DNA of 64,000 nucleotides, from positions 124,001 through 188,000 of the forward strand of contig NZ_CP146022.1 of NCBI RefSeq assembly GCF_036967205.1. Reading direction: 5' to 3'. Position numbers and translations under genes: made by a program. Below are positions 287-59,983 of the stretch, in pieces; the first letter of the stretch is position 1, and every line of letters begins with the position of its first letter. This DNA comes from Streptomyces sp. Q6 (GTDB lineage Bacteria > Actinomycetota > Actinomycetes > Streptomycetales > Streptomycetaceae). The notes beneath the pieces are model-generated. The model did no database searches, was not told where the DNA came from, and saw only the letters and a program-made list of their open reading frames with translations.

Positions 287-307
287 TTAGAGATCGTCTC
301 AACTGAC

Positions 308-685
308 TTGATCACTAAGCTGGCGGCCGTAATGGCGATGGTGGGGCGTCTGGTGCCGGACGGGTTGTGGGAGTTGTTCCAGCGGGTGGTCCCGGCTGCG
401 CCGGTGCGTCCGCAGGGTGGTGGCCGACGTCGGTATGGTCATCGAGAAGTGCTGGCGGCGATCGTGTTCGTGGCCACGACTGGGTGTACCTGGCGGCAGC
501 TGCCGCCAGGCTTCGGCCCGTCCGGGCCAACCGCACACCGTCGTTTCACTGAGTGGAGCCGGGCTCGGGTATGGGGCAAGCTCTACCGCCTGGTGCTGGA
601 CGAACTCGGCGCACGTGGAGCGTTGGACTGGTCCCGGTGCGCGATCGACTCGGTGAACATGCGGGCAACGAGAGGGGGGACCTGA
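308..685 (+). CDS. IS5-family transposase, OrfA part (copy A)
   Basis: This is the N-terminal half of a DDE transposase of the IS5 family with the DUF4096-like start seen in two-frame actinobacterial elements. The run RPQGGGRRRYG, the GCTWRQLPPGFGP motif and the helix GPTAHRRFTEWSRARVW are characteristic. The frame stops just after a run of six G (674-679), where a -1 shift would join it to OrfB. Two elements further on (10509 and 11377) have A-rich slippery strings (AAAAGGGGGG type). Here the A tract is degraded to AGAGGGGGG, so frameshifting efficiency is uncertain. Confidence 0.85.
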   Translation: MITKLAAVMAMVGRLVPDGLWELFQRVVPAAPVRPQGGGRRRYGHREVLAAIVFVATTGCTWRQLPPGFGPSGPTAHRRFTEWSRARVWGKLYRLVLDELGARGALDWSRCAIDSVNMRATRGGT

Positions 686-1149
686 CGGGTCCGAATCCCG
701 TAGATCGCGGCAAGAAGGGGTCAAAGATCCACTTGATCACCGAGCGATCCGATCTGGCCCTCTCAATCGGGATCTCCACCGCAAACACCCACGACAGCCA
801 GGGACTTGAGCCCCTCGTGCGCGGCATCACGCCCGTTCGCTCACGCCGTGGACCGCGGCGGCGAAAGCCTGCCAAGCTCCATGGCGACAAGGGGTATGAC
901 TACGACCACCTGCGCTGGTGGCTGCGCTCGCGGAACATCACCCCGCGCATCGCGCGCAAGGGCGTCGAGTCCTCACAGCGCCTGGGCCGTCATCGCTGGA
1001 CCGTGGAGCGGACGGTCGCTTGGCTTGCCGGATGCCGCCGCGTGCACCGTCGGTACGAACGCAAGGCCGGACACTTCCTCGCCTTCACCGGCATCGCCGC
1101 CGCTCTGATCTGCTACCGCAGACTTGCGAAGGTCCTCAACTCGATGTGA
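679..1149 (+). CDS. IS5-family transposase, OrfB part (copy A)
   Basis: This is the C-terminal catalytic half of the transposase, read in the -1 frame relative to OrfA. It starts near GAC at 679 and has no start codon of its own. It contains GPNPVDRGKKGSKIHLI, the DDE aspartate region in HGDKGYDYDHLR, and the C-terminal RWTVERTVAWL segment that holds the catalytic glutamate in this family. It is a full-length C-terminal half with no internal stop. The SUKH gene follows 73 nt downstream in the same direction. Confidence 0.85.
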   Translation, partial: DLTGPNPVDRGKKGSKIHLITERSDLALSIGISTANTHDSQGLEPLVRGITPVRSRRGPRRRKPAKLHGDKGYDYDHLRWWLRSRNITPRIARKGVESSQRLGRHRWTVERTVAWLAGCRRVHRRYERKAGHFLAFTGIAAALICYRRLAKVLNSM

Positions 1150-1222
1150 TCCATAATGTACGGCCCTATATGGCGCGGCCCAACTCAGTTGACCGCACCG
1201 CGTACACACTGTCGAGGAACTC

Positions 1223-1822
1223 ATGACTGACTATCTGGCTGCCGTGATGGAGATGCTCGGCCCGGCCCAGAACCGCTACGCGGACCCGGCTGCCTGGGAC
1301 CGTCTCCACGCAGAACTCGACACAGAGCTTCCGCCCGACTACCGGGCGCTCGTGGACGCCTTCGCCCCCATTCAGATCAACGGTCATCTGTACCTTTCCC
1401 ACCCGGCGACCGAGCGATGGAACCTGGGCCAGGACATCCACAACAAAGTCGAGGCGTGGTCCGAGGCGCCGTGGGACGACCTCGATCTCGACGCGGATGA
1501 GGACCCCCGCCAGCTCTTCGGACTCGACGAGCTGAGCTTTGGCACCCGCAACGGGCTGTGGCCCATCGCGAGCACCGACCGAGGCGAGACCATCTTCCTG
1601 CTCGCTGCCCCTGAGGCTCCGCGGCTTCTGGTGAACTATGACGAAACCTGGGCAGAGCACCACATGAGCTTCGCGGAATGGCTCTACCGCTACCTCATCG
1701 GCGAAGACATGAGCGGGCCTAACAGCGCAGCCTTTTACCCCGGCCCCGTGCAGTTGCGGCACCTTCCGATGTCCACTGACGAACGCCCCGAACCTTGGTA
1801 CGGCCCAGACCGCGGCATGTGA
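1223..1822 (+). CDS. SUKH (SMI1/KNR4) domain protein, passenger of copy A
   Basis: This 199-residue acidic protein has the SUKH/SMI1-KNR4 pattern: a helix with LPPDYRALVDAF near residues 33-45, NGHLYLSHP, then FGTRNGLWPIAS followed by RGETIFLL. SUKH proteins are mostly immunity proteins of contact-dependent or polymorphic toxin systems, though no toxin gene is adjacent here. The start is set by GAGGAA four bases before ATG. The gene lies between the transposase and the right inverted repeat. The copy at 13646-14245 has the same length and ends with the same GPDRGM. Its function is inferred from the family only. Confidence 0.8.
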   Translation: MTDYLAAVMEMLGPAQNRYADPAAWDRLHAELDTELPPDYRALVDAFAPIQINGHLYLSHPATERWNLGQDIHNKVEAWSEAPWDDLDLDADEDPRQLFGLDELSFGTRNGLWPIASTDRGETIFLLAAPEAPRLLVNYDETWAEHHMSFAEWLYRYLIGEDMSGPNSAAFYPGPVQLRHLPMSTDERPEPWYGPDRGM

Positions 1823-2004
1823 GAGGCCACCGCTCTCTTTACAGCGGCAACCTAATGAGATCACTTCTTAGACGCGAGGCGATCGCATGATCCGCCGGGC
1901 AGAATCCAGGACCGGCATCGCCTGGATCAGCACGGGAACGGGCCCGATGCTGCCCGTCAACGCAGCCTGCCGCCCGGCGCCGGCTCATGTCCTCTCCACC
2001 GCTG

Positions 2005-3572: not shown

Positions 3573-4085
3573 ATGAGCGCCCTCGAACGCCCCATGCCGC
3601 CTCTGAACGCCGACGAACGCACCACGCTCGAAAGCTGGCTCGACTTTCATCGCGTCACGCTCGCCATGAAGTGCGAGGGCGTGGACGATGAGCAGGCCGC
3701 CGTCGCTTCCGTGCCTCCCTCCGGCTTCACGTTGACCGGCCTCGTTCAGCACATGGCCGAGGTGGAGCGGAATTGGTTCCGTCGCGTGCTCGCCGGGGAT
3801 CAGGCCCCGCCCATCCACGACCCGCAGGCCGACCCGGATGCCCCCGACGGCGGGTTCGAACTGGCGGAGGGCGCCACCCTGGGTGATGCCCTCGCCACCT
3901 GGCACGCAGAGATTGCCCGGGCCCGCGAGCACTGCGCCGACCGTGCTCTGTCCGATACGGGTCGCTTCATGGGCCAGGACGTCAACCTCCGCTGGATATA
4001 CGTGCACATGATCGAGGAGTACGCCCGCCACAATGGCCACGCCGACCTGGTCCGGGAACGCATCGATGGCACCACCGGCGTGTAG
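3573..4085 (+). CDS. DinB family protein (DUF664 type)
   Basis: This 170-residue four-helix DinB-superfamily protein has the three conserved histidines expected to bind a divalent metal: in [12 protein letters not shown], and two in [14 protein letters not shown] near the C-terminus. Actinobacterial members are thiol-dependent (mycothiol) S-transferases or damage-induced proteins of unknown substrate. It sits inside the inverted repeats of a decayed IS630 element, convergent with the transposase remnant; its stop lies within a few bases of the remnant's C-terminal end. It is complete, with no sign of decay. Confidence 0.85.
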
Positions 4086-4089
4086 CGGC

Positions 4090-4340
4090 GGATCCAGCAA
4101 CGTTGGCCCTGCCGACGACGGCGCGTAGGCGCCGGTCGTCGGCGTGGCGGTTTTCGCCACATGCTGTAGCGGCGGATCATGCTGCCCTGATCCTTGTGGT
4201 CGGCGTGATCGGTGCCGTCGAGGGTGAAGTAGCGCAGGGCGGTGAACTGAACTTCTGTCCGGTCGAGCCAGGAACTGTTGGTGGGGTTGCAGGTGATCTC
4301 GACATTGGTCGATCTCGCGTACACGAACTCGCTCTGCCAC
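4090..4340 (-). pseudogene. IS630-family transposase C-terminal remnant
   Basis: The minus strand encodes NPTNSSWLDRTEVQFTALRY and then FTLDGTDHADHKDQGSMIRR and YSMWR, the well-known C-terminal block of IS630 transposases. After MWR the frame breaks: one extra A in GCGAAAACCGCC throws it out, and the shifted frame gives the expected NRHADDRRLRAVVGRANVA. The N-terminal two thirds, including the first catalytic aspartates, are missing; the left-over 5' end lies next to the terminal repeat at 4401-4427. Confidence 0.85.
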
Positions 4341-4526
4341 CCGAACAGAGTGACGGTCGCACGCCTCCCGCCGCAGCACCGGGACAGCACGTCATCACAC
4401 CAGGGCGAACGTTGTCTGATGCGGCACTAGCCTTGCCCTCCGGGCCGGTACGACGCGGGTGCGAGCCGGACGACGGCATGGCGCAGGTCACAGGAACTCC
4501 GCCGGGGCGGCGGAGAGGTAGACAGT

Positions 4527-10504: not shown

Positions 10505-10517
10505 CTTAGACCGAGTC

Positions 10518-10991
10518 CTACGTGGTGAGTCGAATGAGACGCTTGTAGCAACAGATGGCTGCAGCAAGCCCGAGAAAGGCCAGGTAGTTGCGGGGATTGC
10601 GTTCGTAGCGAGGGCTGAGACGTCGGTAGCCGGACAGCCAGGACATGGTCCGCTCGATGACCCAGCGGCGTCGCCCTAATCGTTCGCTGGACTCGATGCC
10701 TTTGCGCGCGATCCGTACTCCGATGCGTTTGCCGCGTAACCATTTCCGCAGGTCGGCGCGGTCGTAGGCTTTGTCGGCGTGCAGGCGTTGAGGCTTGAAG
10801 TGTCGGCCGCGGTGGGGGTCGTGTCTCGTTTGGTGACCCTCGATCATCGGCTTGAGACCTTCGCTGTCGTGGGTGTTGCCGGCCGAGATGCCGACGAGGA
10901 GGGGCAGTCCGTTCGCGTCCGACAGGACGTGCATCTTGGAACCCGGCTTGCCCCGGTCCACAGGGCTCGGACCTGTGTGTTCGCCCCCTTT
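10518..10991 (-). CDS. IS5-family transposase, OrfB part
   Basis: Catalytic half read in the -1 frame from the AAAAAGGGGG string. It contains TGPSPVDRGKPGSKMHVLSD, the LHADKAYDRADLRKWL aspartate block and the RRRWVIERTMSWLSGYRR block with the catalytic glutamate. The frame is complete, ending KRLIRLTT. With a good slippery site and near-identical terminal repeats, this element looks potentially active. Confidence 0.85.
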   Translation of the reverse strand, partial: KGGEHTGPSPVDRGKPGSKMHVLSDANGLPLLVGISAGNTHDSEGLKPMIEGHQTRHDPHRGRHFKPQRLHADKAYDRADLRKWLRGKRIGVRIARKGIESSERLGRRRWVIERTMSWLSGYRRLSPRYERNPRNYLAFLGLAAAICCYKRLIRLTT

Positions 10992-11335
10992 TTAGCCCTG
11001 ACATGGGCGGTGTCGAGGACGACGCGGGTGACGTCGATGAGGCCGGCGCCGTCGAGGCGGTGTAGCACTGCTTCGTGCAGGCGGCCCCAGACACCGGCTC
11101 TCGACCAGATCAGGAACCGGCGGTGAGCGGTCGACTTCGATATCCCGAAGCAGGGCGGCAGTTGGCGCCAGGCGCAGCCGCTGACCAAGACGTAGATGAT
11201 GGCCGCGAACAGCGTCTCATCAGGCGTGTCCTGCGTTCCGCCGCCTTGCGGCCGCACCCTCGAGGGCGGGATCAGCGGCTTCGCGATCTCCCACAGCCCG
11301 TCTGGAACAATCCAACTCCACGTACCCCGCCCCAT
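10844..11335 (-). CDS. IS5-family transposase, OrfA part
   Basis: N-terminal half of the transposase, starting ATG at 11335 (MGRGTWSWIVPDGLWEIAK). It has the family blocks RVRPQGGGTQD, SGCAWRQLPPCFG and KSTAHRRFLIWSRAGVW. The functional part runs to the A5G5 string (10984-10993 on the plus strand as C5T5), where a -1 shift gives the catalytic half. Without shifting, the zero frame runs on to 10844 as a low-value tail. Confidence 0.85.
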   Translation of the reverse strand: MGRGTWSWIVPDGLWEIAKPLIPPSRVRPQGGGTQDTPDETLFAAIIYVLVSGCAWRQLPPCFGISKSTAHRRFLIWSRAGVWGRLHEAVLHRLDGAGLIDVTRVVLDTAHVRAKKGANTQVRALWTGASRVPRCTSCRTRTDCPSSSASRPATPTTAKVSSR

Positions 11336-11441
11336 ACCGAGGTTAACGACGCCTCACCACGTAGGACACGGTCTAAGACCGTGTCTCACGTGGCGATTTC
11401 GCCCGCTGCGGGGCCGTAGGTGCTGAGGGCGGGTACAGCCG

Positions 11442-11822
11442 TCAGGACAGCCAGCTGAGTCGGCCGTCCACGACGGCCGGGAGAGACGTGGGCATCTCGT
11501 CGGTGACCCAGGCGAACTCCAGGGCTGCGAGCGTGGCTCCGCGGTCCGTCCATACGAGGATCTCGCCGACGTAGGCGCCGGACGGGTCATGCACGTGCGC
11601 GTCGACGGGCACGAGCTCTGTCGGCAGCGCCGCATGTTCGCAGGGTTCCCGAACCTGCAGATCGACACTCACGGAGTCGGGCCCCCAGACAGCGGTCACC
11701 TCAGTGCGGTCCAGTTGACTCCGCAGTTGTGATGCGCCGGCGAACTCCGCGGCCAGAATGTGCTCAAGTACTGCGCGCTCGTCGGCGTTCAACGAACGCG
11801 GGTCAATGGAAAGAGGAGCCAT
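11442..11822 (-). CDS. Hypothetical passenger protein, 126 aa
   Basis: This acidic, soluble protein begins MAPLSIDPRSLNADERAVLE and has a central beta-rich part (VSVDLQVREPCEHAALP) and an end that reads LEFAWVTDEMPTSLP. No known domain is recognised. It is divergent from the transposase by about 85 bp and lies inside the element's inverted repeats. The start at 11822 has only a weak ribosome site; a longer frame upstream overlaps the transposase and is rejected. By analogy with the SUKH elements it may be an immunity-type passenger, but this is inference. Confidence 0.6.
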   Translation of the reverse strand: MAPLSIDPRSLNADERAVLEHILAAEFAGASQLRSQLDRTEVTAVWGPDSVSVDLQVREPCEHAALPTELVPVDAHVHDPSGAYVGEILVWTDRGATLAALEFAWVTDEMPTSLPAVVDGRLSWLS

Positions 11823-11907
11823 GCGCCCATTCTGAGGGGCCGGTGTAACCAGCCCAACGCTCCACCGGTCGTCGCCGGGGTGGCCGCCAGCGGCATCATG
11901 ATCGTTC

Positions 11908-12267
11908 ATGGGTGGGGATCTGTCGCAGCGGCTCGTGCCGGATGATCTATGGGCCATGGTCGAGCCGGTACTGCCGTCTTTCCGCCCGCACCCGCAGGGC
12001 GGTGGCACCGCGCCGATCAACCAGCGTGCCGTGTTCCCGGCCGTCGTGTACGTGCTGACCAGCGGGTGCGCGTGGCGGTACCTGCCACTGACGTTCGGAG
12101 TGTCGCCGGCGACGGCTCACCGGAGGTTCTCTGTCTGGACCGCATCCGGAGTGTGGCGTCAGCTGCACCGCGTGGTTCTGGACGAGATCGGAGCACGTGG
12201 CGGACTCGACTGGAGTTCCGTGTTCGTCGATGCTGCCTCGGTGCGCGCGAAAAGGGGGGTCCCCTGA
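11908..12267 (+). CDS. IS5-family transposase, OrfA part
   Basis: N-terminal half, starting MGGDLSQRLVPDDLWAMVEP, with RPHPQGGGTAPIN, SGCAWRYLPLTFG and ATAHRRFSVWTASGVWRQLH. It stops just after the AAAAGGGGGG string (12250-12259), a textbook -1 slippery sequence for this group. Confidence 0.85.
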   Translation: MGGDLSQRLVPDDLWAMVEPVLPSFRPHPQGGGTAPINQRAVFPAVVYVLTSGCAWRYLPLTFGVSPATAHRRFSVWTASGVWRQLHRVVLDEIGARGGLDWSSVFVDAASVRAKRGVP

Positions 12268-12725
12268 CAGGGCCGAATCCGGTCGACCGAGGCAAAGCGG
12301 GCAGCAAACTTCACGTTCTGACCGACGCGCAGGGGCTGCCTGTAGTTATCGGGGTGTCCGCCGCGAACGTCAACGATGTGCAAGCGCTTCGCCCGCTCGC
12401 CCTTGGGATCCCAGCCGTCCGCTCGCGCCGCGGCCCTCGTCGGCGACGTCCCGACAAGGTTCGTGCCAACAAGGCGTACCACTCGGCCGGCAACCTGGCG
12501 TGGCTGCGCGAACGCCACGTCACTCCACGGATCGCCCGGCCGGGCGTGGAGTCCTCCGAGCGCCTCGGAAGGCACCGGTGGAAGATCGAGAGATCGATCT
12601 CCTGGCTCTTCGGATACCGCCGCCTGACCACTCGCTACGAACGAAAGGGCAGCCACTTCCTCGCCTTCCTCGGCCTCGCCGCGGTCATGACCTGCTACAA
12701 GAAGCTCGCCAAGATCGCCACGTGA
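12258..12725 (+). CDS. IS5-family transposase, OrfB part
   Basis: Catalytic half in the -1 frame: LTGPNPVDRGKAGSKLHVLT, VRANKAYHSAGNLAWLRER in place of the usual DKAY block, and RHRWKIERSISWLFGYRR with the catalytic glutamate. The DKAY/DKGY aspartate common to the other copies reads ANKAY here. That changes a residue normally required for DDE chemistry, so this copy may be inactive unless the adjacent residue substitutes. Confidence 0.85.
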   Translation, partial: GPLTGPNPVDRGKAGSKLHVLTDAQGLPVVIGVSAANVNDVQALRPLALGIPAVRSRRGPRRRRPDKVRANKAYHSAGNLAWLRERHVTPRIARPGVESSERLGRHRWKIERSISWLFGYRRLTTRYERKGSHFLAFLGLAAVMTCYKKLAKIAT

Positions 12726-12755
12726 AACACCGTCTAAGAGATCGTCTCAACTGGC

Positions 12756-13334
12756 TTGTTCACTAGGCTGAATGCCGTGACAGCGATGGTGGAGCGTCTG
12801 GTTCCAGACGGGTTGTGGGAGTTGTTCCAGCGGGTGGTTCCGGCGGCGCCGGTGCGGCCGCAGGGTGGGGGAAGGCGCCGGTATGGGGACCGGCAGGTGC
12901 TGGCTGCCATCGTGTTCGTGGCAACGACCGGCTGCACGTGGCGACAACTTCCGCCGGGCTTCGGCCCGTCCGGGCCGACCGCGCACCGCCACTTCACCGA
13001 GTGGAGCCAGGCCCGCGTATGGGGCAAGCTCCACCGCCTGGTCCTGGACGAGCTCGGCGCACGCGGCGGACTGGACTGGTCGCGGTGCGCGATCGACTCG
13101 GTGAACATGCGAGCCCTCAAAGGGGGACCTGACGGGCCCGAATCCCGTAGATCGCGGCAAGAAGGCATCGAAGATCCACCTGATCACGGAGCGGACCGGT
13201 CTGCCCCTCTCCATTGGGATCTCGGCTGCCAACACCCACGACAGTCAGGGTCTGGAGCCTATGGTGCGGGGCATCCCACCCATCCGCTCCCGCCGCGGGC
13301 CGCGCCGCCGTCGACCGGCCAAGCTGCACGGTGA
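12756..13334 (+). CDS. IS5-family transposase, OrfA part (copy B)
   Basis: N-terminal half, close to that of copy A (VERLVPDGLWELFQRVVPAA). It reaches AAAGGGGG at 13119-13126. Unlike the other three related elements, the catalytic half is in the +1 rather than the -1 frame here, as if one G had been lost. The zero frame therefore runs on to 13334 through non-family sequence. This copy is probably not able to make full-length transposase. Confidence 0.75.
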   Translation: MFTRLNAVTAMVERLVPDGLWELFQRVVPAAPVRPQGGGRRRYGDRQVLAAIVFVATTGCTWRQLPPGFGPSGPTAHRHFTEWSQARVWGKLHRLVLDELGARGGLDWSRCAIDSVNMRALKGGPDGPESRRSRQEGIEDPPDHGADRSAPLHWDLGCQHPRQSGSGAYGAGHPTHPLPPRAAPPSTGQAAR

Positions 13335-13581
13335 CAAGGGCTACGACTTCGACTGGCTGCGCACGGGGCTCCGCTCCCGCAGCATCACACCGCGCATCGC
13401 GCGCCGGGGCATCGAATCCTCCCAGCGCCTTGGCCGTCACCGTTGGACCGTGGAGCGCACGGTGGCGTGGCTGTCCGGATGCCGCCGTCTGCACCGCCGC
13501 TACGAGCGCAAGGCCGAACACTTCCTGGCGTTCGCCGGCATCGCAGCCGCCCTGATCTGCTACCGCAGGCTGACAGCCTGA
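13126..13581 (+). CDS. IS5-family transposase, OrfB part (copy B)
   Basis: Catalytic half from GDLTGPNPVDRGKKASKIHL to FAGIAAALICYRRLTA, with HGDKGYDFDWLRTGL and RHRWTVERTVAWLSGCRR intact. It lies in the +1 frame relative to OrfA, so it needs either a +1 shift or repair of the G run. The SUKH gene begins 64 bp after its stop. Confidence 0.75.
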   Translation, partial: DLTGPNPVDRGKKASKIHLITERTGLPLSIGISAANTHDSQGLEPMVRGIPPIRSRRGPRRRRPAKLHGDKGYDFDWLRTGLRSRSITPRIARRGIESSQRLGRHRWTVERTVAWLSGCRRLHRRYERKAEHFLAFAGIAAALICYRRLTA

Positions 13582-13645
13582 CCGGCGAGACCTCCGAGCT
13601 GGAATGATCCTGTCGCAAAGACGACACAAGCCAGCGAGGAACGCC

Positions 13646-14245
13646 ATGACCGACTACCTGGCCGCCGCCATCGCGATGCTCGGCCCGGCCGAGAACCGCT
13701 ACGCCGACCCCGCCGCCTGGGACCGGCTCCACACCGAACTCGACATCCGGCTGCCGACCGACTACCAGACCCTCGTAGACGCATACGCTCCCATCCAGCT
13801 CAACGGCCACCTGTACCTGCACCACCCCGCAACCGAACACTGGAACCTGGGTGACTGGATACGCGGGACGGTCCGCGCCTGGTCCGAAGTCTCCTGGGAC
13901 AAGCTCGACCCGGACGAGGACCCCCGCCTGCTCTTCGGACTCTCAGAGTTGAGCTTCGGTACGCGGAACGGACTGTGGCCGATCGCCAGCACCGACCGCG
14001 GCGAGACCCTGTTCCTTGTAGCCGCGGACGACACAGCGCCCTGGATTCTGATCGAGGACGGCGAGGGCGGCTGGGCACGGTTCGACATGAGCTTCGCCGA
14101 ATGGCTCTACCGGTACCTCATCGGCGAAGACATGGCCGGCCCCAACACCTCCGCCTTCTACCCCGGCCCGGTACAGCTGTGCCGACTTCCGATGACCGCT
14201 GACGAACGGCCGGAGCCATGGAGAGGGCCTGACCGCGGTATGTGA
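13646..14245 (+). CDS. SUKH (SMI1/KNR4) domain protein, passenger of copy B
   Basis: This 199-residue homologue of the 1223-1822 protein has the same block order: AAWDRLHTELDIRLPTDYQT, NGHLYLHHPATEHWNLG, FGLSELSFGTRNGLWPIAST, AEWLYRYLIGEDMAGP and the same last six residues. Differences are spread along the gene and concentrated in the middle (for example AADDTAPWILIEDGEG against AAPEAPRLLVNYDETW), with both frames intact. That pattern suggests both are still under selection. GAGGAACGCC precedes ATG at 13646. If it is an immunity protein, the central differences could reflect different toxin partners. Confidence 0.8.
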   Translation: MTDYLAAAIAMLGPAENRYADPAAWDRLHTELDIRLPTDYQTLVDAYAPIQLNGHLYLHHPATEHWNLGDWIRGTVRAWSEVSWDKLDPDEDPRLLFGLSELSFGTRNGLWPIASTDRGETLFLVAADDTAPWILIEDGEGGWARFDMSFAEWLYRYLIGEDMAGPNTSAFYPGPVQLCRLPMTADERPEPWRGPDRGM

Positions 14246-14313
14246 CCCCGCACGCCACGACAGCCGCAGGCGCCCTCCCAACTGCCTGGAGAACCAAATG
14301 AGACGACCTCTAG

Positions 14314-15360
14314 CGAGCTCGTGCACGGTAGGCGGTGAGACGTCGCGAACTTCGGTGCGACCCAGCTTCACATCTGCCATGTCGGGTTCAGGTCCGCGGT
14401 CTGCTGGTGGGACAGCAGGCCGGCGATGGCTTGGACGGTGTCGCTCATGTGCTCGCGGCGGCCGAGGTGGCGGGCCAGGGCCCGCCAGTTCTTCAGATGG
14501 GCGATGCCGTGCTCGACACGGATACGTCGTGATGAGTGCGCCTTGCGCTGGCGCTCGTGCATCTCTTCGTACCAGTCCGGGGCGTTCTTCTTGAACTTGC
14601 GGTGCGGTGGTGTCACCACCCGACCACCGGTCTGGGCGCCCAGTCCCTGGTAGCCGCCATCAGCCAGGATCTCGACTGCAGGCCCGTCGGCCAAGAGGTT
14701 GACCAGCCCTAACTGGCGGGCATGGGTGATGTCCGCGCAGCTTGCGGGACGGGCCGGGCTGCACCACAGCACGCGGCCTTCGCCGTCCGTGACCACCATG
14801 GACTTGACGGCGTTCTGCTTGTTCTTGCCGGAGATGAACTTGTCGCGGTCCTTGCGTCCGGCAGCGGGCCGGCGGACCCGGATCTCGGTGCCGTCGACGA
14901 TGCCGGTCGCCCCGCTCGCGCCGAGATGGTCGACAACCTCAGCGAGAGACCGCAGCCGCACGTCGGGGCTGACGGTGCAGCCCCGCTCGGCGAGCAGGGG
15001 CCGCACCTCACCGATGGCCCGGGTGACGGTGGAACGGTCCGCTCCGAACCAGCAGGCCAGCACATCATGGGTGACCCCGTGACGAAGATGGACCAGCGTG
15101 GCCAGCAGCCGGTCGACGAACACCAGCCGGTACTTCGCGCCTGCGCCCACAGCCCTCTGCCGCGGGCGAGCGGCAAGCCTCGCCTGATGACGCTCATGCC
15201 ACAACGGTCCGATCTCCTCGACGAGTTCAGCAATCACTCCGGCAGTCAGCCCCGTGATCCGCCGATTGCCGATGATCACCGCGCGCGTCGAGTTCCCCAC
15301 CACCCGACCATGATCAACCATCCAGGCTCGACGTCTCACCGCCTACCGTGCACGAGCTCG
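14314..15360 (-). mobile_element. IS5-superfamily element with 32-bp perfect repeats
   Basis: The terminal repeats are perfect over 32 bp (14314-14345 and 15329-15360; outer part CGAGCTCGTGCACGGTAG). TAG lies on both sides (14311-14313 and 15361-15363). One transposase gene fills the 1047 bp on the minus strand. The insertion point is exactly next to the last base of the SUKH element copy B. Perfect ends and an intact gene suggest a recent arrival. Confidence 0.93.
14368..15321 (-). CDS. DDE transposase (IS5 superfamily, DDE_Tnp_4 type)
   Basis: This protein of about 317 residues has an N-terminal helix-turn-helix (FVDRLLATLVHLRHGVTHDV, ADRSTVTRAIGEVRPLL) and a DDE_Tnp_4 domain with IVDGTEIRV, ILADGGYQGL, and SSRRIRVEHGIAHLKNW carrying the three acidic residues. 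ATG at 15321 is preferred; a longer frame from GTG at 15339 would start inside the terminal repeat. The gene is complete, so the element may be mobile. Confidence 0.9.
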   Translation of the reverse strand: MVDHGRVVGNSTRAVIIGNRRITGLTAGVIAELVEEIGPLWHERHQARLAARPRQRAVGAGAKYRLVFVDRLLATLVHLRHGVTHDVLACWFGADRSTVTRAIGEVRPLLAERGCTVSPDVRLRSLAEVVDHLGASGATGIVDGTEIRVRRPAAGRKDRDKFISGKNKQNAVKSMVVTDGEGRVLWCSPARPASCADITHARQLGLVNLLADGPAVEILADGGYQGLGAQTGGRVVTPPHRKFKKNAPDWYEEMHERQRKAHSSRRIRVEHGIAHLKNWRALARHLGRREHMSDTVQAIAGLLSHQQTADLNPTWQM

Positions 15361-52496: not shown

Positions 52497-53195
52497 ATGG
52501 GAAGTTTTCTCGCCAGAGCCCGGAGAGTCCGCGCCGTCGTCGTGATGGCCGTCTGCACACTCGCCGCCGCCGTCGCGCTGCCCGCCGCGCCCGCTCAGGC
52601 CGCCGCCCACGACCCCGTGCTGTTCGTGCACGGCGTCTGGACCGACGGACCCACCACGTGGACCGACATGATCGCCGACTTCGAGCGGGAGGGCTGGGAT
52701 CCCGCCTCGCTCCAGATGATGAACTACAACACCGCCCAGAGCCTTGAGGACAGCGCCGCCGAGGTCGTCGACGAGGTCGCCGCGCTGCGTGCCCGAACGG
52801 GCGCGGCGAAGGTGGACATCGTCGCGCACTCCATGGGTGCGCCCATGGTGCGCTGGTACCTGAAGTTCCTCGGCGGTACCCAGTACGTCGACGACTTCGT
52901 CTCGATCGCCGGCGGCAACCACGGCGGGATCGGCACGGAGTTCTGCGCTCCCGTCCAGCCGTCCTGCCAGGACATGCTCATGTACAGCCCGTTCCTGCAA
53001 GCGCTCAACTCCGGGGACGAGACCCCCGGTCCGACGACCTACACCGCCCTCTGGTCCAGCTGCGACGAGTTCCTCAACCCCGACTCGACCGCGCTCCTCG
53101 ACGGTGCCGACAACATCTGGGCCGGCTGCCTCGGCCACGTCACGATGGTGAACTGGCCGCAGAACTTCGTCCGAACCGAGAACGCCGTCGCCTGA
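52497..53195 (+). CDS. Secreted class 2 lipase (EstA-type), copy 1
   Basis: This 232-residue secreted alpha/beta hydrolase has a signal peptide (RAVVVMAVCTLAAAVALPAA to AQAA), DPVLFVHGVWTDGPTTWTDM for the oxyanion hole, the nucleophile elbow VAHSMGA (histidine before serine) and GHVTMVNWPQNFV with a candidate catalytic histidine. It resembles the compact family I.7-like/EstA lipases. Four cysteines suggest disulfides. It is about 85 percent alike to the protein at 59300-59983 by eye. A perfect terminator follows. Confidence 0.9.
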   Translation: MGSFLARARRVRAVVVMAVCTLAAAVALPAAPAQAAAHDPVLFVHGVWTDGPTTWTDMIADFEREGWDPASLQMMNYNTAQSLEDSAAEVVDEVAALRARTGAAKVDIVAHSMGAPMVRWYLKFLGGTQYVDDFVSIAGGNHGGIGTEFCAPVQPSCQDMLMYSPFLQALNSGDETPGPTTYTALWSSCDEFLNPDSTALLDGADNIWAGCLGHVTMVNWPQNFVRTENAVA

Positions 53196-59299: not shown

Positions 59300-59983
59300 A
59301 TGCGAAGAATCCTCACCTCGGTCACAGCAGCCGTCCTGACGGTCGTCTGCACCCTGGCCGCCCTGTTCCTGCCGGCCGCGCCCGCGCAGGCCGCCGCCCA
59401 CGACCCCGTGCTGTTCGTCCACGGTATCTACCTCGACGGGCCTCTCACCTGGACCGACATGATCGCCGACTTCGAGCGGGAGGGCTGGGACCCCGGCTCG
59501 CTGCAGATGATGAACTACAACACCTGGCAGAGCCTGGAGGAGAGCGCGGCCGAGGTCGTCGACGAGGTCGCCGTGCTGCGGGCGAGGACCGGCGCGGCCA
59601 AGGTCGACATCGTCACCCACTCCATGGGTGCGCCGGTGGTCCGCTGGTACCTGAAGTTCCTCGGGGGCACGCAGTACGTCGACGACTTCGTCTCGATCGC
59701 CGGCGCCAACCACGGTGGCCTGGGGGTGGAGGGCTGCGCCATCCAGCCGGCGTGCCAGGACCTCGCCGTGTACAGCCCGTTCATGCGGGCCCTGAACTCC
59801 GGTGACGAGACGCCGGGGCCGACGACGTACACCGCCGTGTGGTCCAGCTGCGACGAGCTCATCAACCCGGACGTGAGCGCGATGCTGGACGGCGCGCGCA
59901 CCATCTGGGCGGGCTGCGTCGGCCACGTGGCGATGGCTTCATGGCCGCCCAACTTCGACCGGGCCCAGAACGCGGTCGCGTGA
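59300..59983 (+). CDS. Secreted class 2 lipase (EstA-type), copy 2
   Basis: This 227-residue secreted hydrolase is closely related to the protein at 52497-53195. It has the same signal-to-mature junction (AAPAQAAAHDPVLFVHG), the nucleophile elbow VTHSMGA, DETPGPTTYTAVWSSCDE, and the C-terminal VGHVAMASWPPNFDRAQNAV, with the histidine and cysteines conserved. The signal peptides differ more than the mature parts. GAGGAG lies well before ATG at 59300. The two genes flank the liv operon, which suggests a local duplication. Confidence 0.9.
   Translation: MRRILTSVTAAVLTVVCTLAALFLPAAPAQAAAHDPVLFVHGIYLDGPLTWTDMIADFEREGWDPGSLQMMNYNTWQSLEESAAEVVDEVAVLRARTGAAKVDIVTHSMGAPVVRWYLKFLGGTQYVDDFVSIAGANHGGLGVEGCAIQPACQDLAVYSPFMRALNSGDETPGPTTYTAVWSSCDELINPDVSAMLDGARTIWAGCVGHVAMASWPPNFDRAQNAVA

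Follow-up and report, generated by a model that had tools for sequence, protein, structure and literature searches.

A SUKH (SMI1/KNR4) gene of Streptomyces sp. Q6 is a passenger of an IS5-type insertion sequence (IS) and moves with it. The gene lies within the ends of a 1,578-bp element, copy A, at positions 290–1867 of the window, by which we mean the whole 64,000-nucleotide stretch analysed (NZ_CP146022.1, positions 124,001 to 188,000 of the forward strand). An earlier sequence-only reading of this DNA had recognised SUKH as an IS passenger, which stands, but not its place among many alternative cargoes.

Boundaries and mobility of the SUKH elements

Copy A is laid out as follows.

287–289, no strand: left target duplication, TTA (same triplet at 1868–1870)
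290–306, plus strand: left inverted repeat, GAGATCGTCTCAACTGA
308–685, plus strand: transposase ORF A, DUF4096
661–1149, plus strand: transposase ORF B, DDE domain, in the minus-one frame relative to ORF A
1223–1822, plus strand: SUKH (SMI1/KNR4) passenger gene, 199 aa, same strand as the transposase
1851–1867, minus strand: right inverted repeat
1868–1870, no strand: right target duplication, TTA

The left end, GAGATCGTCTCA, starts at 290 and the right end, TGAGATCACTTC, finishes at 1867; inverted ends with TTA on both sides, enclosing a two-frame transposase and a SUKH gene, are thus present just as first described from the letters. ORF A presumably joins ORF B through a frameshift at the G run 674–679. 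Pfam assigned the transposase to DUF4096 (E = 9.5e-23) and DDE_Tnp_1 (E = 1.8e-17), and the NCBIfam model transpos_IS5_3 identified an IS5-family DDE transposase, with ORF B scoring 127.6 bits (cut-off 110) and ORF A alone 94.3 bits, below the cut-off. Within this family, IS427 or IS1031 would be the candidate subgroup. The terminal inverted repeats and short target duplication of IS5 elements were found, with the ends of copy A itself pairing at only 9 of 17 positions; because of this pairing copy A by itself is weak evidence, and the case for the element becomes strong through comparison across SUKH elements. A toxin–antitoxin pair inside copy A was considered and rejected, since the 718 bp from the transposase stop to the right end hold the 600-bp SUKH gene and leave no room for a second one.

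Copy B has its parts ordered as in copy A.

12738–14310, plus strand: copy B, whole element, IS5-type transposase and SUKH
13646–14245, plus strand: SUKH gene of copy B

The SUKH proteins of the two copies share 76% amino acid identity, a diversification that the sequence-only reading had proposed to look for. The flanks of copy B, TAA and TAG, are not identical, which may be due to a further IS transposase (DDE_Tnp_4, 14368–15339) adjoining it directly on the right. The G run of copy B (13122–13126) is one base shorter than that of copy A, so that ORF A reads beyond its usual stop, and the transposase of this copy may be impaired.

The 8.95-Mb genome of the strain holds three SUKH matches. 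The third copy, L003 (right arm), is 99.4% identical to copy B over window positions 12736–14312, that is, the element plus two bases on each side, and its flanks are unrelated to those of B; the SUKH gene therefore moves with the IS. In this recent second insertion transposase and SUKH have travelled together, which bears out the claim of a true passenger; its ORF B has a 1-nt deletion. A fourth copy without SUKH, L007 (G000:C1:18651-19400), lies near the other chromosome end, in the left arm, and ends inside the transposase. Its left flank is common to L003, and by inference this common flank belongs to the terminal inverted repeat.

Both ends were recognised in 13 distinct SUKH elements (left end at least 15/16, right end at least 9/12). 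Identical TTA or TAA triplets flank 10 of them; in copies B, L003 and L013 the two triplets differ. One SUKH match (86%) lies at 3928-4524 of NZ_CP107900.1, a plasmid of Streptomyces sp. NBC_00464 (G179:C2:3928-4524), in an element whose transposase is annotated as a single IS5 gene. A second architecture, flanked by TAA on both sides, places SUKH to the left of the transposase and divergent from it; on a plasmid of S. anulatus NBC_01010 such a left-slot SUKH element runs from TAA and GACGTCGTCTCAGTTGG to the mirrored end and TAA. Two SUKH genes near a single IS5 transposase were also seen on an S. anulatus plasmid. The empty-site alignment proposed for copy A came to nothing: no empty site was found among the 41 relatives compared for the right flank, for which the best long match outside this genome covered 294 of 536 bases at 71%.

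Toxin linkage of SUKH homologues

SMI1_KNR4 is the nearest Pfam family of the copy A SUKH protein (E = 6e-4; 20.8 bits, below the curated cut-off of 25.4), which had no match in NCBIfam and none in the PDB by profile search. Its close homologues carry the NCBI annotation "SMI1/KNR4 family protein", and a full-length homologue with 39% identity scored 25.5 bits against SMI1_KNR4, just above the cut-off. SUKH families include non-immunity proteins too.

In Streptomyces sp. NBC_00853, the gene for a SUKH protein 39% identical to that of copy A from end to end follows, after 9 bp, a giant RHS-repeat gene that carries a LamG-like annotation. We checked the upstream region of 31 SUKH loci (20 fetched among the matches listed and 11 already in the set). 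An RHS gene, or an ORF with the same ending, lies 0–17 bp upstream at 10 of the 31 (L259, L263, L267, L211, L235, L270, L271, L273, L278 and L280). No RHS-like ORF immediately precedes SUKH at the remaining 21; the ORFs there are shorter, unlike or missing, mostly unscanned, and many of these loci are IS-derived or more distant. All five RHS protein C-termini scanned matched Endonuclea_NS_2 above the cut-off. When one subtype of this toxin domain was searched for in 392 genomes at E = 1e-15, it was found in nine, each time with a SUKH match directly behind it (18–101 bp between the matched stretches). Seven of the nine loci were among those checked upstream and two (G143, G385) were new. At the same threshold, neither the strain itself nor any of the 15 genomes encoding a full-length SUKH of at least 70% identity has the domain.

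Elements A and B themselves hold only the transposase and SUKH, whereas homologues with 34–57% identity to the IS-borne proteins do adjoin a toxin. In a SUKH tree built by a quick method and containing several long branches, one branch (33 rows, support 95) unites 13 right-slot IS copies, 9 relics and 11 SUKH-only loci; another (support 99) holds two divergent-type copies and 4 SUKH-only loci; and the ten toxin-linked SUKH fall outside both. This distance and placement mean that the IS-borne SUKH may have another target. Such a target could be phage, a different class of toxin or some other stress, and SUKH domains are linked to many toxin types in the accessible text of PMC12247911. We nevertheless regard protection against something else as fairly unlikely, given that the linkage found is to nuclease toxins and that PADLOC returned no match. 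Assignment to a phage-defence family was rejected on the same search, which covered eight proteins.

Immunity of the IS-borne SUKH against RHS-delivered nucleases is, judging from this linkage, probable, and DNA/RNA nucleases delivered in this way are the candidate target. The passenger would be an orphan immunity gene, derived from SUKH antidotes whose genes immediately follow those of RHS-repeat proteins ending in a DNA/RNA non-specific nuclease domain. Its product would bind and block such nucleases when delivered by rivals, carriers of the IS would gain protection without owning the toxin, and protection may spread without the toxin. Of the "mobile immunity module" proposed at the outset, mobility is observed directly and immunity is suggested by the association of the same SUKH family with RHS-nuclease toxins. 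On a Kitasatospora plasmid, a SUKH gene sits beside an Imm7 gene.

A cargo slot with alternative genes

Of 392 Streptomyces genomes, 193 contain an ORF B match at E ≤1e-60, and the transposase-plus-SUKH unit has spread through the genus, as had been supposed. We examined 120 loci, 30 given by the ORF B search and 90 fetched from the best-scoring matches listed, so that near relatives are over-represented; some near-identical copies from one genome are included. A fixed rule was applied (repeat pairing of at least 12/17 and TNA behind the right end). Sixty-nine loci are cargo-free, with the right repeat overlapping the transposase stop, and in 28 the right repeat lies 376–1,067 bp further out, behind one extra gene. 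A left end without an accepted right end was seen in 15 loci (in 3 of these the right end is on the stop, without TNA), five loci are cargo-free without a left end, and three have no left end. Identical triplets flank 54 of the 69 cargo-free and 22 of the 28 cargo loci. As controls, 5 of 2,240 shuffles satisfied the rule, none of the 2,240 with a matching triplet, as did 1 of 112 reversed sequences.

Poor pairing between the two ends keeps four SUKH loci, copy A (L078), L079, L084 and L096, from satisfying the strict rule; the assignment of A, L079 and L084 comes from the comparison of SUKH elements, and L096 (the same as L013) has unlike triplets. In the comparison proposed by the sequence-only reading, elements with and without SUKH have outer repeats of the same type (GAN5TCTCA) and a TWA duplication, and no element was met in which the right repeat lies at the transposase stop with such a SUKH gene just outside. 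The cargo elements measured 1,226–1,657 bp and, in the loci read, contain one well-coded gene between transposase and right end. Outside the genus, in a sample of 296 genomes of the class, there were five matches in four genomes of one other family, all five cargo-free with the right end on the stop.

Fifteen cargo families, including SUKH and the element C gene (below), lie between both repeats with identical triplets in at least one locus. Pfam searches with 19 representatives assigned cargoes to ankyrin repeats (7 loci), DUF1877 (E = 4.4e-41), UPF0167/CbrC (E = 3.5e-61), DUF4240 (2 loci), DUF2625 (2 loci), DUF6193 and DUF4291. A lincosamide-nucleotidyltransferase-like gene occurs at two loci (L204, L153), its best NCBIfam match being Lnu(F) at 149.7 bits against a cut-off of 450. 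Cargo proteins without a Pfam match have about 118 aa (6 loci), 112 aa (3), 88 aa (3), 160 aa (2), 198 aa and 170 aa; Streptomyces genomes re-drawn in the class-wide search added a second DUF4291 element and unmatched proteins of 178 and 213 aa. The ends are weaker or missing in the nucleotidyltransferase, 88-aa and 213-aa families, and NCBIfam had no match for seven of eight cargo proteins. At least one other cargo also moves: one genome contains two copies of the 160-aa element that show 99.93% identity across 1,403 aligned bases and differ in their triplets and flanks. The extra genes in these IS5 elements are currently annotated as separate neighbours.

Several of these families resemble immunity genes. 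The accessible text of PMC3599342 credits CbrC of E. coli, a UPF0167 protein, with protection against colicin E2, and that of PMC3482391 lists ankyrin proteins as Imm-ank. A search of plasmids for toxin linkage of five other cargoes, with six regions opened, gave a single lead: on a Hymenobacter plasmid (L283, NZ_CP114769.1 70503-78877), a homologue with 33% identity to the 160-aa cargo is encoded among colicin-immunity and Imm53 genes. At another locus (L240, NZ_CP098484.1 81486-92052), SUKH, DUF4240 and nucleotidyltransferase-domain genes, three kinds seen as cargo, lie within about 5 kb.

Scanning the window for ends of this IS kind revealed two further elements.

10509–11373, minus strand: element D, cargo-free relative, 865 bp, repeats 16/17, flanks TTA and TAA
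11377–12734, plus strand: element C, related IS whose cargo separates the left repeat from the transposase, repeats 15/17, flanks TAA and TAA
11442–11822, minus strand: cargo gene of element C, 126 aa, divergent from the transposase, no Pfam match
11908–12725, plus strand: transposase of element C, two frames, DUF4096 and DDE

Elements D, C and B follow one another over 10509–14310 with a single TAA at each junction (D-TAA-C-TAA-B), as if each IS had used the junction of the last as its target. The left-hand slot of the element C type also holds SUKH, in another SUKH subclade. The element C cargo is 87–94% identical in 4 of the 6 matching plasmid records, and its homologue adjoins an IS5 transposase in both records opened, where element ends were not recognised. 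At L298 (NZ_CP108525.1 238598-246969), an IS5 transposase is flanked by an ankyrin gene and, on its opposite side, by an element C cargo homologue; two elements may have fused here. For S. zaomyceticus, a two-cargo element was considered and is unsupported, as no well-paired ends were found.

The ORF B phylogeny (FastTree; 126 sequences, 117 of them different; 450 columns; 44 open forks) includes 13 SUKH rows, mostly from the SUKH search. Its cargo labels need 25 changes, compared with 45 in shuffles. Sister transposases carry different cargo (DUF4240 and a 118-aa gene, support 98) or cargo and none (UPF0167, support 100), and the same families recur on separate transposase branches, the 112-aa cargo in three placements even when starred branches alone are counted. 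A trace of cargo exchange by recombination within the transposase gene was looked for and not seen: trees of four transposase segments need 28, 30, 26 and 29 label changes, with no gradient toward the 3' end. The IS group would offer an exchangeable slot for alternative genes, several of them immunity- or resistance-like. On balance, we lean towards this IS5 group acting in Streptomyces as a mobile immunity library of single antidote-like genes from many families, held to the right or sometimes the left of the transposase, which are exchanged, stacked at TWA junctions (D-C-B) and left to the host as a stable resident defence once the transposase decays.

Persistence of SUKH, selection and related systems

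After removal of 12 SUKH loci as duplicates (L004, L005, L006, L008, L040, L042, L043, L045–L049) and 4 as fragments (L035, L037, L038, L068), 47 were kept. SUKH and transposase are both intact in 12, SUKH is intact beside a partial transposase in 15, intact without a transposase match in 18, and broken without a transposase in 2. These counts include one genome twice (L034, L064) and single frameshifts under "partial" (L003, L041), refer to flanks of 1.5 or 4 kb, and include L060, where "broken" may mean a match stopping short. None of 19 loci with SUKH fragments or weak SUKH matches has an intact transposase alongside. At eight loci with SUKH of at least 70% identity the flank contains no match to the transposase, which shows that SUKH genes occur without the IS as well; only some of the eight keep the right repeat, and for the remainder it is the tree that points to descent from an element. 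In all, ten SUKH loci without an intact transposase have a right repeat (at least 10/12) within 60 bp of the SUKH stop (L012, L015, L016, L020, L025, L026, L030, L031, L055 and L061).

SUKH is under purifying selection, with a dN/dS of about 0.20. The median was 0.198 within elements (45 pairs) and 0.216 where the transposase is decayed or absent (189 pairs), the pairwise values at transposase-less loci including time spent within elements; medians for ORF B and ORF A were 0.107 and 0.102. An often intact SUKH after decay of the transposase is expected if hosts keep the gene. It also fits the earlier suggestion that the element "pays its way", of which the benefit itself is presumed.

Neutral hitchhiking, in which IS5 copies trap any gene beside a second right end and the cargo brings no benefit, would suit the diversity of the cargo, which includes the lincosamide-nucleotidyltransferase-like gene and several genes of unknown family. 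It is hard to reconcile with the selection on SUKH, the return of the same families on separate transposase branches and the different slots used by SUKH in two subclades, and we consider it improbable. A transposition accessory, such as a regulator or chaperone of the transposase with no host benefit, would be expected beside the transposase and under purifying selection, as SUKH is, co-directional in both A and B; this explanation is very unlikely, however, because the 69 cargo-free elements of the sample lack any such gene, the cargoes belong to unrelated families, SUKH is intact at many loci whose transposase is broken or not found, and its homologues sit behind toxins. That SUKH lies outside the IS and the right repeat is coincidental, as the poor pairing in copy A might suggest, can be dismissed given the shared boundaries of L003, the identical target duplications of most bounded SUKH elements, and the shuffled and reversed controls.

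A passenger within a single IS recalls the transporter IS (tIS), defined as an IS carrying passenger genes in the accessible text of PMC9330008 and PMC3129680. As there, an extra gene lies within the repeats of a single IS with its own transposase; here the passengers are unrelated to transposition and have moved with the IS, both SUKH and another cargo. Copy A would accordingly be described as a transporter IS with a two-frame transposase, imperfect inverted repeats of about 17 bp, a 3-bp TWA duplication and a passenger slot between transposase stop and right repeat. The difference is that many single cargoes, several antidote-like, alternate in one slot of one IS5 group, for which a literature search covering few subscription papers found no report. 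The DUF4096/DDE transposase and TWA duplication are those of the IS5 family. The length of element D agrees with the span of 850-1,200 that the accessible text of PMC7371123 reports for Ralstonia IS5 elements, whereas the cargo elements extend beyond it.

Orphan immunity genes kept apart from their toxin are also known from the AID/rAID systems of Bacteroidales, where, according to the accessible part of PMC12247911, such genes include a SUKH that protects against a nuclease effector. Those are recombinase-associated arrays, whereas in Streptomyces a single gene is carried per small IS with its own IS5 transposase rather than an immunity array with a dedicated recombinase. The IS-borne SUKH may work like AID/rAID genes without being a member of these systems. 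SUKH is often named as an immunity family of polymorphic toxin systems (PMC3482391, accessible text); the family is the same here and homologues lie directly behind RHS-nuclease genes, but within the element the IS-borne copies lack a toxin partner. If correct, our reading would account for the movement of antidote genes without their toxins in soil bacteria, on the smallest vector possible, and would describe an IS of possible benefit to the host. It also predicts functions for DUF1877, DUF4240, DUF2625, DUF4291, DUF6193 and unnamed families.

Two repeats of other kinds were seen elsewhere in the window. GCGGTCTCT is repeated six times head-to-tail at 2392–2445, either where a minus-strand gene starts or immediately upstream of it. 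The stretches 52566–52865 and 59357–59656, 86% identical, lie in two secreted proteins that are likely paralogues and that look lipase-like by a motif.
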